From positions 310,001 to 374,000 of the forward strand of contig NZ_PXYA01000001.1 of the NCBI RefSeq assembly GCF_003841405.1: 64,000 bases of DNA. The letters are read 5' to 3'. The stretch comes from Tetragenococcus halophilus subsp. halophilus DSM 20339. Its GTDB lineage: Bacteria > Bacillota > Bacilli > Lactobacillales > Enterococcaceae. Of this stretch, positions 50,740-57,967 are shown piece after piece. Position 1 is the stretch's first letter. Each line of letters begins with the position of its first letter. The translations under genes and the position numbers were made by a program. The notes beneath the pieces are model-generated. The model was given only the letters and a program-made list of their open reading frames with translations. It made no database searches and had not been told where the DNA came from.

Positions 50740-53700
50740 TTGAGTTTACAATTTATAACCGGAGATGGTAGTTGCGACCATGAAAAAGTGGTATTAGATA
50801 CCGCTTGTGACTGGTTAGCAAATGATCATAATGAAGTCTTTTTTTTAGTCCCTAACTACAATAAATTTGAACGTGAACAAGAAATTTTGTCGCAATTAAA
50901 ACATAGACAAGAAAAAAAGGATTTTAGTACGATTCGGGGACAAGTTTATAGTTTTAACCGTTTAGCATGGTATTTTTTACAAGATAGTGAAAATATAAAT
51001 GGACAGACAATTTCGGATACAGGCTCAGCTATGATTATGCGTAAAGTTCTTCTAACTTTAAGCGATAAACTGATTATTTTCCGTGGTGAGATCAATAAGG
51101 AAGGTTTTATTGCAAAATTACTTGAACTTTATAAAGAATTTCAACTAGGCAACATTACAATTGATACGCTTGGCTTTCTTCCTAGCAGTCAGGAAACAAC
51201 TAAGGCTAAAGATTTTGAACTTAAGATGTATGAAATTAGACTGATATTTACCGCTTATGAAAAAGAACTGGCTAAAAGAAACTTACAAGTAGAACAACCG
51301 ATTTCGATGTTAACTAATTTTTTAGCAGCTAGTGATTTACAGGATACAGCTCAGTTAGAACAAAAGCTTTTTATAGTCACTGGTTTTTCGAATTTTAGTA
51401 TGCAAGAACAAGAACTTTTAAAAGTCTTATTTGGTAAAAGTCATGTGTGTATTGATCTGTATGTTGACTCTGTGCATACAGATAGTGACGCCTTAGATTT
51501 ATTTTTTGATCCAAAACAAACTTACCATCTTTTAAAAAACTTTGCGCAAAATCAACAAAGCCATGTCTTATTTGATAAAAAGGCCCCTCTTTTAAATAAT
51601 GTATCTACTAGTTACTTAGAGTTAGAACGCTGTTTCAGACAGACGAATCACGGAAGATATGAACAAGCAGGTGCTCTGAGTGATCATGTGGAAATTTGGA
51701 AAGCCGAGAACCCAGAAGAAGAGTTAAGACAAGTAGCAACAGAAATTCGACGATTAGTTTCTCTTTCATTTACTAAAGGGAATAAGCCACTTTATTATCG
51801 AGATATTCAGCTATTAACTTTGAATCCGGAACTATATTATTCTTTCATTCCGTCGATTTTTGAAGAATTAGATATTCCTTTTTATTTAGATGAAGATCGG
51901 CAGATGAAACAACACCCCTTAGTAGAATTTATCCAAGCTTTATTTGCTTTAGATAATTATTATTACCGGACATCTGATGTTTTCCGTTTCTTGCGCACCG
52001 AACTATACATACCAAAGCAACTACAAGAAGATACACAAGATTGGCAAAAAGCACGTGATAAATATCGTTGGATAGTTGATATAACGGAAAATCAAGCTTT
52101 GGCACATAATTTTCATGGTGCTGACTGGACACGTGAGCAAGACTGGCGTTTATTTAATTTTGATTTTGAAAAAGAAGAACTTATTGATACTGAAAATACA
52201 GAAGTACTTACAAATCAGCTTCGTAATAATTTTCGTAATGATATTGTCAGCTTTTTTATCAGTTTAAAAGCTGCAGATACAACGAAAGAAGCAATTATAA
52301 TCTTTTATCAATTTTTACAAAAAATTGGTGTTGAACAGCAGTTGATCTATTGGCGAGAACAAGAAATTGTATGGGGAAATTTGGAGCAAGCACGTGATCA
52401 CGAGCAAACATGGGCTTCTTTGATGGACTTATTAGATGAACTTGTAGAAATCTATGGGGAAGATCCTTTTGACTTTGACCTTTTTAAGGAAATATTATCT
52501 AGCGGGTTGGAAAATCTTACATTTGGTAAAGTTCCCACGGCTATTGACCAAGTACAAATTAACCCACTAGATTTAACTCGTCCTTTACAAGCAAAAGTGA
52601 CTTTTGCAATTGGTTTAGACGAAACAAGTTTTCCTCGTACTGTGGAAAATAAAAGTTTAATTTCCACAGAAGAAAGACAACAATTAAACGAAAATTTACA
52701 GCCAGGACAATATTTAAAGGATCAAGCAGAAGAAACGATTCGTAAAGAGCCTTTTGTCGCTTATAATATGTTATTGTCAGCTTCTGAAAAATTATATTTA
52801 AGCTATCCCAAAAATGCAGATTCCAAGCAAAATATCAAGATGTCTTCTTATCTTGCTCGTATATTAAAGTGGACTGATCTAACGCTGCAAGATCGATGTA
52901 GCTTGGATTTAACTTGTGATCCGCATCATTACGTTGGAAGCTATAAGAGCCTAATCCGCCAATTGAACAGCTTATATCGTCAAGCACAAGAGGAAAAAAG
53001 CGCTCTTTCCGGGAAATGGCAATCCTTAAAAGACTTACTCTTGATGTCTGATTATCGGTCATTAGCAACTAAAGTATTTGAAAGTCAAGTGCATCGTAAT
53101 GTTCCAGTGAACCTCTCACCTGAGTTGGCTGAGCAGTTATATGGGAAAAATATTTATAGCTCGATTTCACAAATAGAAACTTTTTATGATTATCAGTATG
53201 ATTATTTCCTTAAATTCGGTTTGGGGCTAAAAGAAAGAGAAATTTACGGTCTCAATTCTGCGATGACTGGAGAAATCTTCCATGAGGCTTTAGATAACTT
53301 TTTAAAGGCTGTTTTTCAAGATGACCTTTCACTGACGCAAATGTCAGAAGAACAGCGACAACTTTTAATCGATCGTGTGTTAAAAAATATATTTGGACAA
53401 GAACGTTATGCTTTTATGGAAAAAAATGCTCGTATGAGTTTTATTCGTTATCGTTTAGGCAAAACAGTCCAACATGTTTCCTGGGGGTTAAAAAAACAGG
53501 CTGAAAAAACACAATTAACGCCTGTTCAGACTGAAGTCTTATTTGGAGAAATTGCAGGAAACCAAGGGATTCCCGGTTTAGAAATCCCTTTATCTAACGG
53601 GGGCAAACTTTATCTAAGAGGAAAAATTGATCGTGTCGACACAACGACTATTGATGGAAAACCTTGGCTTGCGGTGATGGACTATAAATCAAGCGCTCAT

Positions 53701-54297
53701 CAGTTTGATATTACCGATAGTTACTATGGTCTTGCCATGCAACTGCTCACTTATTTAGATATTGCTTTAAAAGATGCTGTTGAACTCATAGGCAAAAAAG
53801 ATGTAAGTGGTGCTGGTGCTTATTACTTCCATGTTTACGATCCTATTCTGGCCCCTAAAAAAGCTAGTGAAAAGGAACGCTTGAAGCAATACAAGCTTGA
53901 TGGGCTTTTTGCAGATGACCCGGAAGTGTTTGAAGCTTTTGATGAAACGCTTAATAAGTCCGAACATTCACTAGTATTTCCTATTCAAAAAGATAAAAAT
54001 GAGCAAATAAAAGGCTCTGTTAGAAGTAAAGAAAAGTTTTATACTATAGAAGAGATGAACACGCTGATGGCACACAATCGCAAGAAGTTAAAAGAAGCGG
54101 CTGAAAGAATACTTTCTGGTGAAATTAAAATGAATCCTTCTTATAAGATGAAAGATAAAAGGCGAGCAACACAATATTCTCCGTTTCGTAGTATCTCTTT
54201 ATTTGATCCGATGTTAGAAGAAAATGACTATCATCGCATTCATTCCTTATCAAAAGAAGAAATTATGGAACGCTTAAAGGAGGAAAAAGATGACTGA
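50740..54297 (+). CDS. rexB: ATP-dependent helicase/nuclease subunit B (RexB/AddB)
   Basis: 1185 residues. N-terminal inactivated helicase-like part (from SLQFITGDGSCDHEKVVLD) and a C-terminal PD-(D/E)xK nuclease with the motif AVMDYKSSAHQF. Works with RexA to resect double-strand breaks for recombination. In AddB four cysteines hold an iron-sulfur cluster; at the matching places this protein has Tyr818, Thr1144, Ser1147 and Ser1153, with the C-x2-C-x5-C spacing kept. TTG start behind AAAGGAG. Overlaps rexA by 8 bases. Confidence 0.95.
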   Translation: MSLQFITGDGSCDHEKVVLDTACDWLANDHNEVFFLVPNYNKFEREQEILSQLKHRQEKKDFSTIRGQVYSFNRLAWYFLQDSENINGQTISDTGSAMIMRKVLLTLSDKLIIFRGEINKEGFIAKLLELYKEFQLGNITIDTLGFLPSSQETTKAKDFELKMYEIRLIFTAYEKELAKRNLQVEQPISMLTNFLAASDLQDTAQLEQKLFIVTGFSNFSMQEQELLKVLFGKSHVCIDLYVDSVHTDSDALDLFFDPKQTYHLLKNFAQNQQSHVLFDKKAPLLNNVSTSYLELERCFRQTNHGRYEQAGALSDHVEIWKAENPEEELRQVATEIRRLVSLSFTKGNKPLYYRDIQLLTLNPELYYSFIPSIFEELDIPFYLDEDRQMKQHPLVEFIQALFALDNYYYRTSDVFRFLRTELYIPKQLQEDTQDWQKARDKYRWIVDITENQALAHNFHGADWTREQDWRLFNFDFEKEELIDTENTEVLTNQLRNNFRNDIVSFFISLKAADTTKEAIIIFYQFLQKIGVEQQLIYWREQEIVWGNLEQARDHEQTWASLMDLLDELVEIYGEDPFDFDLFKEILSSGLENLTFGKVPTAIDQVQINPLDLTRPLQAKVTFAIGLDETSFPRTVENKSLISTEERQQLNENLQPGQYLKDQAEETIRKEPFVAYNMLLSASEKLYLSYPKNADSKQNIKMSSYLARILKWTDLTLQDRCSLDLTCDPHHYVGSYKSLIRQLNSLYRQAQEEKSALSGKWQSLKDLLLMSDYRSLATKVFESQVHRNVPVNLSPELAEQLYGKNIYSSISQIETFYDYQYDYFLKFGLGLKEREIYGLNSAMTGEIFHEALDNFLKAVFQDDLSLTQMSEEQRQLLIDRVLKNIFGQERYAFMEKNARMSFIRYRLGKTVQHVSWGLKKQAEKTQLTPVQTEVLFGEIAGNQGIPGLEIPLSNGGKLYLRGKIDRVDTTTIDGKPWLAVMDYKSSAHQFDITDSYYGLAMQLLTYLDIALKDAVELIGKKDVSGAGAYYFHVYDPILAPKKASEKERLKQYKLDGLFADDPEVFEAFDETLNKSEHSLVFPIQKDKNEQIKGSVRSKEKFYTIEEMNTLMAHNRKKLKEAAERILSGEIKMNPSYKMKDKRRATQYSPFRSISLFDPMLEENDYHRIHSLSKEEIMERLKEEKDD

Positions 54298-57200
54298 TAT
54301 TCCTTTAAAACCAAAAAATGAAACATTTACTGACAAACAATGGCAAGCAGTATTTGACACTGGTGATAATTTACTAATATCTGCTTCAGCAGGTTCAGGA
54401 AAAACGACTGTTTTGGTACGTCGCGTGATTGAAAAATTAAAGAGTGGAAGTAATATTGACGAATTATTGATTGTCACCTTTACCGAAGCAGCAGCTAGAG
54501 AAATGAAGGAGCGTATTCAAAGTTCTTTACAAGATGCAATTAATAAAGAAAGTCAGCAATCGCGGCGTAATCACTTTGTTAAACAGCTATCTTTACTACC
54601 TCGAGCTCATATTTCTACTTTGCATGCTTTTTGTCTAACTGTTATTCGCCGTTTTTACTTTTTGATTGACTTGGATCCAGTATTTCGTATGCTTACTGAT
54701 GATACGGAGCGGATATTATTAAAAGAAGAGGTTTGGGAAGAGTTACGGGATGAATACTTTGAAGCTTCTGATCAGGAATTTTATCAATTAGCAGAGAATT
54801 TTTCTAGTGATCGCTCAGATGATGGATTTACTGATCTGATCATGTCTTTATATAATTTTGCTAGAGCCAATCCTGATTCGACCACTTGGTTAAACCAGCT
54901 GGTACAAAGTTATGATACGACACATGGTTTAGCAGGAAATCAGATGTATCAAACCCAAGTTAAGCCGCTTGTTTTAGCTAATTTACAAACGGCTATTGGT
55001 CAATTACAAGCAGCTTTGCAAGTAGCTCAAAGTTCGGAATCGATGGAAAAAGCAGTCGTTGTAGTCGCCAATGATTTAGAACAAGCGAATCGTTTATATG
55101 CTTACATCAAGGAGGATAATGTAGAACAAGTTTACGCGCAGTTAACAAGCTTTGACTTTAAACGCTATCCAACTTATAAAAAAGAAGAAGAAAAGGAACT
55201 ATCAAAACAATTCATTAAACCTCGACGTGATCATGCTAAGGAACTCATTAAAGATTCTGAAACATTTTTTGCGCAGCCTCCTGAAAAAATGCTCGAATTA
55301 ATGGAGCAAGCCAAACCTTTAGTTAAAAAGATGAGCGAAGTAACTTTAAGCTTTATTGATAGATATCAAAAGCGTAAGCAGGCTAAGGGTGTATTAGATT
55401 TTAATGATCTTGAACATTATGCCTTAGATATTTTACAAGCTAATGGCGAAGGTAGTGAAGCTTCTTCTTACTATAGAGATCGTTTTGAAGAAGTTCTAGT
55501 TGATGAGTACCAAGATACCAATCGCCTGCAAGAAGCTATTTTGTTTTGGATCCGTAAACCAGATCCCGCACAAGGAAACTTATTCATGGTAGGAGATGTG
55601 AAGCAATCTATTTATGCCTTTCGCTTGGCTGATCCGACATTATTTGTAGATAAATACTTAGCTTTTGCACAGCAAAATGGTGGCCGAAGAATTATTTTAG
55701 CGGAAAACTTTCGTTCTAGAAAGGAAGTACTACACTTTACCAATCTGGTATTTGAGCAATTGATGGATGAAAAGGTAGGTCAGATCCCTTATGATGAAGC
55801 AGATCAATTAGTCCCTGGTTTTTCAGATTTTCCCGAAAGTGATGCATTTAATACTGAGTTACTCTTATGTGAAAAAGAAGTTGAGGAAGATCCAACAGTC
55901 GTTGACGATAAAACTGAAGGAGAATTATATCTGGTTGCGCTAAAGATCAAAGAACTAGTTGAAAATAAGTTTATGATCTATGATAAACATGCTAAAGAAA
56001 AACGGGCTGTTACTTACAATGATATTGTGTTATTGACGCCAACACGCAAAAATAATCTAGTGATTATGGACATATTTAAACAGTTTCAAATTCCTTTGGA
56101 AGTCAATGATGCACAAAACTACTTTCAAGCATCAGAAATCCAAATTATGATTTCACTATTAGAAATTATCGATAATCCTTATCAGGATATTCCTTTTGTA
56201 GCAGTTCTGCGCTCTCCGATAGTTGGTTTAAATGAAGAAGAGCTAACTAAAATTCGTTTAGCTAAAAAAAATGATGATTATTATAAGGCATTTTTGGCGT
56301 ATTTGTCAGAAGACGACGAACTTGCTAGTCGTCTGCGAACTTTTAATGAACAATTAGAATTGTGGCGAACACTAGCTAGAAGACGTTCACTTAGTGAATT
56401 GATCTGGTCGATTTATCAAGAAACGGCCTATTTAGATTACGTCATTGGCCTTCCTTCAGGTCGACAACGTCATGCCAACTTAGTTGCTTTAGCTCATCGG
56501 GCAGAAACTTATGAAAAGAGTAGTTTTAGAGGTTTGTATCAGTTTATCCGTTTTATCGAAAAAATGCAGGAAAAAGATAAGGACTTAGCCGAACCTCTTG
56601 CCTTAACTCAAGAAAATGCGGTAAAGGTTATGACGATCCATGCTAGTAAAGGACTCGAATTTCCGGTGGTTTTTCTTTTGGATATGACTAAGCAGTTTAA
56701 TTATAGTGATTTTTCGACACGCTATATTTTTGAAGAACGTTTAGGAGCAGGTATTCAATATATAGATCAAGCACAAGTTCGCTATGATACTTTGCCGTAT
56801 CAAGCAATCAAACAGCAAAGAATCCAAAAAATGTTATCAGAGGAAATGCGTAAGTTGTATGTTGCCTTGACCCGAGCAGAACAGAAGCTTTATCTAGTTG
56901 GCTCCTACAAAACCAAAGAAGAAGCCTTAAAGAATTGGCAACAAGCGCTAGATCAAGAAAATTTGGTGCTAGATACAGCTTTACGTCTAAAAGGCAAAGG
57001 GAACTTAATGGATTGGGTAGGAATGACTTTGATGCGTCATCCAGATATGCAAAAAGTTTTTGCTGAAGCCAAAGATAGTAAAAAAGTACTTGATCATCCA
57101 GCTCATTTTGAAATACATTGGGTAAATCAAGCACAACTACAAAAAGAGTTGAATAAGCCTAAAACATCAGTTGCTGAAGATTTTTCATTAAGTAATTCAG

Positions 57201-57967
57201 AAAAAACTGAAGTAAATGACTTACAGCAACGTTTGGACTTTGTTTATCCATTAGAAAAATCAACCAAAACCACTAGTTATCAGTCCGTTTCTGAAATGAA
57301 ACGTTTGTATAACGACCCTGATGACCAGCAACTTAATAGAATCTCTTGGCAAAGTAATGTCGAGCAGCAACAAGCACAATATTATCGGTATGTAACAGAA
57401 GAATTGGCTAAACCTAAATTTATGCAAGCAGATCGTATTGATCCAACGACTGTAGGCAGTGCGACTCATAGTTTATTACAGTTGATCCCATTAACGACTT
57501 TGCCAACATTTGACAGTATACAAGAAAAATTAAAACAGTTAGTAGATAATCATCAAATCGAAAAACAAGTTGCTGAAAAAATTGATTTAACAGCTATTCT
57601 GTGGTTTTTCCAAACAGAATTAGGCAAAGAAATTTTAAAAAAACCACAACTTGTCCATCGTGAACAACCATTTTCTATGCTAAAAGATGCTCGTGATGTA
57701 TTTTTAGACTTTCATGAAGCAGATGCTGAATTATTAATACACGGTATTGTCGACGGTTTTATCGAATATGAGGATTATGTTATTTTATATGACTTTAAAA
57801 CAGATGCTGTGTATAATGAGACAAGCAGACAACAGTTCATTGCTAAGTATCAAGGGCAATTACGCTTATATTGCCAAGCTTTGGAACAGGCACTAAATAA
57901 ACCTGTGCAACATACTTTTTTAGTTCTTTTAAATAGTAAAGAAAATATTGAGTTATTTACCGAGTAA
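54290..57967 (+). CDS. rexA: ATP-dependent helicase/nuclease subunit A (RexA/AddA)
   Basis: 1225 residues. UvrD-type helicase: Walker A SASAGSGKTTVLVRR near residues 32-46, VDEYQDTN Walker B, LAENFRSR, MTIHASKGLEFPVVF and YVALTRAEQKLYLVG. A C-terminal nuclease domain has HGIVDGFIEYEDY with DFKTD. It is the motor and one nuclease of the RexAB complex. The ATG lies inside the end of rexB, so translation is coupled. Confidence 0.97.
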   Translation: MTDIPLKPKNETFTDKQWQAVFDTGDNLLISASAGSGKTTVLVRRVIEKLKSGSNIDELLIVTFTEAAAREMKERIQSSLQDAINKESQQSRRNHFVKQLSLLPRAHISTLHAFCLTVIRRFYFLIDLDPVFRMLTDDTERILLKEEVWEELRDEYFEASDQEFYQLAENFSSDRSDDGFTDLIMSLYNFARANPDSTTWLNQLVQSYDTTHGLAGNQMYQTQVKPLVLANLQTAIGQLQAALQVAQSSESMEKAVVVVANDLEQANRLYAYIKEDNVEQVYAQLTSFDFKRYPTYKKEEEKELSKQFIKPRRDHAKELIKDSETFFAQPPEKMLELMEQAKPLVKKMSEVTLSFIDRYQKRKQAKGVLDFNDLEHYALDILQANGEGSEASSYYRDRFEEVLVDEYQDTNRLQEAILFWIRKPDPAQGNLFMVGDVKQSIYAFRLADPTLFVDKYLAFAQQNGGRRIILAENFRSRKEVLHFTNLVFEQLMDEKVGQIPYDEADQLVPGFSDFPESDAFNTELLLCEKEVEEDPTVVDDKTEGELYLVALKIKELVENKFMIYDKHAKEKRAVTYNDIVLLTPTRKNNLVIMDIFKQFQIPLEVNDAQNYFQASEIQIMISLLEIIDNPYQDIPFVAVLRSPIVGLNEEELTKIRLAKKNDDYYKAFLAYLSEDDELASRLRTFNEQLELWRTLARRRSLSELIWSIYQETAYLDYVIGLPSGRQRHANLVALAHRAETYEKSSFRGLYQFIRFIEKMQEKDKDLAEPLALTQENAVKVMTIHASKGLEFPVVFLLDMTKQFNYSDFSTRYIFEERLGAGIQYIDQAQVRYDTLPYQAIKQQRIQKMLSEEMRKLYVALTRAEQKLYLVGSYKTKEEALKNWQQALDQENLVLDTALRLKGKGNLMDWVGMTLMRHPDMQKVFAEAKDSKKVLDHPAHFEIHWVNQAQLQKELNKPKTSVAEDFSLSNSEKTEVNDLQQRLDFVYPLEKSTKTTSYQSVSEMKRLYNDPDDQQLNRISWQSNVEQQQAQYYRYVTEELAKPKFMQADRIDPTTVGSATHSLLQLIPLTTLPTFDSIQEKLKQLVDNHQIEKQVAEKIDLTAILWFFQTELGKEILKKPQLVHREQPFSMLKDARDVFLDFHEADAELLIHGIVDGFIEYEDYVILYDFKTDAVYNETSRQQFIAKYQGQLRLYCQALEQALNKPVQHTFLVLLNSKENIELFTE

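Follow-up and report, generated by a model that had tools for sequence, protein, structure and literature searches.

We found that the rexB (addB) gene of Tetragenococcus halophilus subsp. halophilus DSM 20339, located in the window analysed here (the whole stretch of 64,000 nucleotides), probably encodes a functional AddB-type subunit that was vertically inherited and whose 4Fe-4S iron staple disappeared on the Tetragenococcus branch. Tetragenococcus is a salt-loving food bacterium, and in AddB the cluster fastens a strap at the C-terminus to the beginning of the nuclease domain. A preliminary description of this gene had claimed that all four cluster ligands are substituted, that their spacing is preserved and that the fold is held without a cluster. 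The first two claims were borne out in alignments with AddB and with other RexB proteins, in which relatives carry cysteine at these positions and no real cysteine of the window protein was placed in the cluster site. The third stands as the best reading of a protein with exchanged ligands, an otherwise conserved sequence and a low ratio of nonsynonymous to synonymous substitution (dN/dS), but as a prediction made from sequence alone. According to the accessible text of PMC3466216 and PMC7430649, the four cysteines of AddB hold a 4Fe-4S 'iron staple' that is critical for the structural integrity of the nuclease domain.

All four positions lie on the + strand. Tyr818 (codon TAT, 53191..53193) falls on the first cluster cysteine in the AddB and family alignments; this cysteine is residue 801 of Bacillus subtilis AddB, and the ligand numbering of that protein is assumed throughout. 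In the family alignments, Thr1144 (ACA, 54169..54171), Ser1147 (TCT, 54178..54180) and Ser1153 (TCT, 54196..54198) fall on the second, third and fourth cysteines, respectively. When the C-terminal part alone was aligned with B. subtilis AddB, the two serines again fell on the second and third cysteines of the C-x2-C-x5-C set, but a one-residue gap beside Thr1144 shifted this residue by one column; the family alignments are free of gaps there and place Thr1144 on its cysteine. An Enterococcaceae homologue with intact cysteines (L004) has TGT at all four positions, and the threonine requires more than one base change. Thus none of the four conserved cysteines that span the nuclease domain and characterize the iron-staple nucleases (AddB, Dna2, Cas4 and Bad) is present (0/4), so that RexB may work like AddB and yet, judged by its cysteines, would not be an iron-staple nuclease. 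The window protein does contain cysteines at positions 12, 23, 237, 298, 720 and 726, of which only 237 and 298 are common to all eight Tetragenococcus rows. A compensating cysteine set was rejected, as no new conserved cysteine appears near the site in the RexB rows.

The substitutions are shared by the genus. The state Tyr/Thr/Ser/Ser (YTSS) was found in 8/8 Tetragenococcus rows, Candidatus T. pullicola apart, representing six distinct proteins with two identical pairs. In a scan of named genomes, Tetragenococcus headed the matches with two T. halophilus rows (L134 and L135), T. muriaticus (L136) and a metagenome-assembled genome (L137), and T. solitarius (L148) ranked lower; Candidatus T. 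pullicola and many Enterococcus were matched too. By RexB, the window genome thus belongs to Tetragenococcus. All 79 other rows of the same alignment carry four cysteines (CCCC). The comparison within Enterococcaceae used 73 of them, the sister Candidatus T. pullicola included; a Vagococcus row and five non-Enterococcus reference rows, all six of them CCCC, were left out of this set. Among the 73 rows, 164 columns were at least 97% conserved, and only eight of them were changed in every Tetragenococcus row. Four of these eight are the cluster cysteines (P = 2.4e-6 if columns are hit at random), and the other four genus-wide changes are mild (W299F, L641I, R736K and V1008I).

In a RexB tree of 36 rows from which the four ligand columns had been removed, Tetragenococcus formed one clade (support 100, starred), with the CCCC-bearing Candidatus T. 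pullicola as its sister (support 94, not starred) and a single state change. The tree nests the genus inside Enterococcaceae, and acquisition of rexB by transfer was accordingly rejected. These relationships point to one loss event on the branch to Tetragenococcus after its split from Candidatus T. pullicola. Comparison of the window rexB with that of another Tetragenococcus genome (G193) gave dN and dS values of 0.116 and 1.51 over the whole gene and of 0.085 and 1.64 in codons 800-1160, the dS values (>1.5) being near saturation.

The protein otherwise has the features of an AddB-type subunit. The gene (50740..54297, + strand, TTG start) encodes a helicase-like and PD-(D/E)XK nuclease subunit of 1185 residues, 96% identical to its nearest relative, from T. 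halophilus. A phmmer search against the PDB sequences returned one match, B. subtilis AddB (3u44_B), covering RexB residues 4-1184 (E = 2.5e-122), and the homology extends to the N-terminal ADDB_N domain and the C-terminal nuclease domain (Pfam PDDEXK_1). In a 22-row alignment, the nuclease-domain residues His848 (codon 53281..53283, + strand), G961, D964, R965, D967, D981, Y982 and K983 are invariant. Among these, His848 is presumably the RecB-family nuclease motif residue, and D964, D967, D981 and K983 are taken to be catalytic; the motifs around these four are intact (53620..53688, + strand), so that the full set of RecB-family nuclease residues is retained. The partner gene rexA/addA, expected of an AddAB/RexAB system, is adjacent and overlaps the 3' end of rexB (54290..57967, + strand; TIGR02785, 1406.9 bits against a cut-off of 707.65). 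RexB itself scored 725.8 bits with addB_Gpos (TIGR02773) and 357.3 bits with rexB_recomb (TIGR02774), missing both cut-offs (903.7 and 718.35), as did the intact-cysteine homologue L004 (734.5 and 356.5 bits). Because L004 also falls below them, these scores reflect distance from the model seeds rather than loss of the cluster. The name RexB is thus used loosely here, as by these scores the protein is nearer to the AddB model than to the RexB model.

We suggest that the strap is now held near the helix of residue 818 by ordinary packing and hydrogen bonds. Candidate holding residues, all of them conserved, would be F815, Y820, Y822, F823, F1149, F1155 and D1156. RexAB would then still bind DNA ends and resect DNA breaks as before.

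The preliminary description had also proposed mapping the trait on a tree of lactic acid bacteria. We used family codes f1-f9 for the Lactobacillales and equated f1, within which three Tetragenococcus genomes fall in the rpoB tree, with Enterococcaceae. A RexB/AddB match was present in 198/198 genomes of the order searched, and the sites were read in 91 of these together with three other Bacilli (94 genomes). The site was all-or-none: 43 genomes have four cysteines, 51 have none and no genome has one to three (the window genome, which accounts for two of the 52 cysteine-less rows in the output, is counted once). Among the genomes read, the site is kept in f1 outside Tetragenococcus (23/23), f5 (one genome), f7 and f8, absent in f3, f4, f6 and f9, and split in f2. 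The substitutes vary by lineage, with Y/T/S/S, often D/S/G/S, or N/L/x/x. Mapped onto an rpoB tree of 80 genomes, the character requires a minimum of five state changes. The tree counts alone cannot tell loss from gain; however, 30/30 outgroup Bacilli read are CCCC, which makes loss the natural direction, although these were the top-scoring of 81 genomes searched and are therefore biased towards classical AddB. A cysteine-less RexB is thus common in lactic acid bacteria, and what distinguishes Tetragenococcus is an isolated loss in a family in which the site is otherwise retained.

Some rows in these alignments require comment. Ten fragment loci (L040, L045 and L051-L058) were dropped before the first family alignment, in which L046 and L048 stop short of the last three sites; for the 94-genome reading, the genomes of both were fetched again. 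In that reading, one or more of the sites fall in a gap in G160, G121, G083 and G051. The f3 rows are registered differently at the C-terminus in these two alignments, and no cysteine stands at the sites in either. The rexB match of one f9 genome (G171:C1:187368-190919) contains one in-frame TAG, and this genome (G171) also has no SufBD match.

We also examined MutY and Nth, in the same 77 of the 91 RexB-read genomes of the order and in 15 further Enterococcaceae without a RexB reading. The 4Fe-4S motif C-x6-C-x2-C-x4-5-C occurs in both proteins of every other Enterococcaceae genome examined (27/27) and in neither protein of the three Tetragenococcus genomes (0/3). The contexts of the residues we take to be catalytic (Lys/Asp in Nth, Glu/Asp in MutY) are still present in these three genomes; the MutY Asp pattern was unmatched in the one control (G002). 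In a MutY tree computed with the Fe-S columns cut, Tetragenococcus lies inside a 10-row Enterococcaceae set (support 95, starred), and therefore the loop was apparently rewritten in place in a vertical gene. The Tetragenococcus MutY proteins (L268, L269 and L270 of G193, G172 and G000) carry the loop ECPxWLKPFCYAC, with three conserved cysteines and a nearby histidine. These cysteines are at other spacings, unlike those of the other MutY tails compared, and the rewritten loop could be a different metal site.

Nth appears to have followed another route. Rather than falling inside Enterococcaceae, Tetragenococcus Nth groups with the second of the Nth copies in an f6 genome (4 rows, support 97, starred), in a tree built quickly from 194 columns and containing some long branches. 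Its locus in two Tetragenococcus genomes (G000 and G193) differs from that in two other Enterococcaceae (G002 and G274): naming the neighbours by eye, we take nth to lie between a P-type ATPase gene and a reductase-like gene in the former and beside a dnaD-like gene in the latter. The simplest reading is that Nth was replaced by a foreign cluster-less gene. The routes thus look different for the three proteins, with substitutions in RexB, loop rewriting in a vertical gene for MutY and a foreign nth. Among 91 Nth tails, 51 carry the motif, 19 carry C-x4-H-x-H-x2-C, 14 retain only the first C-x6-C and seven are of other kinds. In Tetragenococcus (L237, L238 and L239 of G172, G193 and G000), C-x4-H-x-H-x2-C replaces the 4Fe-4S motif, and the 19 rows bearing it come from f6, f2, two f4 genomes and Tetragenococcus; it is a possible zinc site. 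Three f2 genomes (G057, G111 and G143) have second Nth copies (L357, L359 and L360), with the full 4Fe-4S motif in neither copy. In one Enterococcaceae genome, nth (G034:C1:496842-497833, L241) is split into frames of 84 and 149 residues and is possibly broken; the part with the motif was scored as motif present.

Across the 77 genomes, the states of RexB and MutY correspond. Four RexB cysteines occur with the MutY motif in 28 genomes, a cysteine-less RexB occurs with a motif-less MutY in 41, and there is no discordant genome. The two proteins therefore agree in 69/69 genomes bearing both; the remaining eight genomes have no MutY gene, and all of these have a cysteine-less RexB. Independent RexB-MutY contrasts numbered five when all branches were used. 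We regard this coupling as suggestive. For Nth, four RexB cysteines occur with the motif in 28 genomes, and a cysteine-less RexB occurs with a motif-less Nth in 34, with the motif in eight and with no nth gene in seven.

These results suggest a broader interpretation, which we put forward tentatively and rate at slightly below an even chance: lactic acid bacteria may have repeatedly evolved an Fe-S-free repair set as one selected package, in which RexB and MutY change in step, the four ligands go together and Nth often follows. Tetragenococcus would be one clearly separate case, reached by substitution, loop rewriting and a xenologous C-H-H-C Nth that possibly binds zinc, with SUF kept for other clients. 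Selection, or a shared permissive change, may have acted towards Fe-S-independent DNA repair.

Several observations weigh against our main reading, however. In the related Bad nuclease, according to the accessible text of PMC7430649, mutation of the cluster cysteines gave unstable proteins that were lost in purification. The dS values are, as noted, near saturation, and MutY and Nth were read in three Tetragenococcus genomes only. The independent-pairs test of RexB and MutY comprised three supported pairs, all in the same direction (sign test, P = 0.25), and Nth is loosely linked, as 8/42 genomes with a cysteine-less RexB and an Nth keep the Nth motif. Finally, residues 1133-1165 of an AlphaFold model of RexB, built from 22 input sequences, have a predicted local distance difference test score (pLDDT) below 50. 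The model has a mean pLDDT of 82.2 and a predicted template modelling score of 0.62, and its best structural match is AddB 4cej_B (template modelling score 0.73-0.75; root-mean-square deviation 7.9 over 1204 columns). However, a model of the intact-cysteine homologue L004 computed from the same rows behaves alike (1134-1158), so that the weak confidence in the strap cannot be attributed to the missing cysteines. The models say nothing about the cluster site.

As for the cause of the loss, the cluster might, as the preliminary description suggested, have been abandoned under low iron or high oxygen, through iron scarcity or oxidant damage; we consider this possible, though on balance doubtful. 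The loss of the motif from three repair enzymes by different-looking routes suggests a direction rather than an accident. A precedent is offered by Streptococcus pneumoniae, a producer of hydrogen peroxide (H2O2), in which, according to the accessible part of PMC5214746, the 4Fe-4S clusters of MutY, Nth, a DinG-family helicase and DnaG are not conserved, while SUF is retained. The state of the remaining Fe-S machinery argues the other way. SufB/SufD-type genes were found in 179/196 genomes, including all three Tetragenococcus genomes searched (two matches each), and the latter have 4, 5 and 3 radical S-adenosylmethionine matches, within the range of 3-10 in nine other Enterococcaceae. There is thus, to judge from gene content, no general Fe-S collapse in Tetragenococcus, and SUF would still serve other clients. 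Nor does loss of SUF track the RexB state, since the five SUF-less genomes among the 77 comprise four with a cysteine-less RexB and one (G125) with CCCC; loss of SUF as the cause of the RexB change was therefore rejected. The latter genome, of family f8, keeps the motif in RexB, Nth and MutY (L094, L272 and L303) yet has no SufBD match, which indicates either another assembly system or a genome gap.

Alternatively, the cluster may have been dispensable for the fold and lost without benefit, through relaxed selection and drift. The repeated state changes on the rpoB tree imply that the fold tolerates absence of the cluster, and the replacing residues differ between lineages, but we find this explanation rather unlikely: it fits poorly with the lack of any genome with one to three cysteines among the 94, with the complete match of the RexB and MutY states and with a Tetragenococcus Nth that seems to stem from replacement by a foreign gene lacking the cluster, not from decay. 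A switch to another metal, such as zinc, at the old RexB site has a parallel in the DUF3799 nuclease, in which zinc is bound by four cysteines instead of a cluster, although the authors warn that the zinc may be artefactual (accessible text of PMC3466216), and in the C-x4-H-x-H-x2-C tails of Nth. However, Tyr/Thr/Ser/Ser is no usual zinc ligand set and no new conserved cysteine lies near the site, so that such a switch is unlikely for RexB, and we give it very little weight. The reading that the protein is degenerating, for which the instability of the Bad mutants might speak, or that its state is a sequencing or alignment artefact, is largely refuted by the occurrence of the same state with the same spacing in eight rows from several species and assemblies, the low dN/dS, the intact motifs and open frame, and the intact rexA.

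A vertically inherited, cluster-less AddB-type subunit in Tetragenococcus thus remains our preferred reading, and a genus lacking all four ligands beside close sisters that keep them offers a natural comparison for the role of the cluster and of the residues replacing it. Clusters that cooperate across repair proteins would be expected to disappear jointly, and the RexB-MutY match across the order makes a redox function or cooperation of repair clusters testable by comparison.

Annotation rules already split AddB into cluster-bearing and cluster-less types, and a cluster-less MutY of a lactobacillus has reportedly been studied, although our literature search did not turn up such a study. That search also found no paper joining AddB, RexB and iron-sulfur, and among the titles and abstract openings covered, none dealt with repair clusters in Tetragenococcus. 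The terms AddB and RexB do not occur in the accessible main text of PMC5214746, nor do 'cluster-less' and 'lactobacill' in that of PMC9266487.

Compared with B. subtilis AddB (PDB 3u44, 3u4q, 4ceh, 4cei and 4cej), Tetragenococcus RexB shares homology over nearly the whole length, the predicted fold, the nuclease motifs and the addA partner, but has all four iron-staple cysteines replaced. RexB in the sense of TIGR02774 is represented by the f3 row L039 (1431.6 bits); the f3 rows likewise lack cysteine at the same sites, and therefore an AddB-type subunit without the cluster has precedents in the order; the window protein, however, is nearer to the AddB model and represents a separate change inside Enterococcaceae. 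DUF3799 resembles it in having a RecB-type nuclease domain with a staple without Fe-S, but as far as its published description was accessible, that nuclease keeps four cysteines with zinc, whereas Tetragenococcus RexB keeps none. The likeness to S. pneumoniae, within the accessible text on that species, is that 4Fe-4S clusters are not conserved in several repair enzymes while SUF is kept; in Tetragenococcus, by contrast, the Enterococcaceae read show the loss in this genus alone, with intact-cluster sisters available for comparison. Tetragenococcus RexB thus adds a well-placed new example to a phenomenon that was already known in part.

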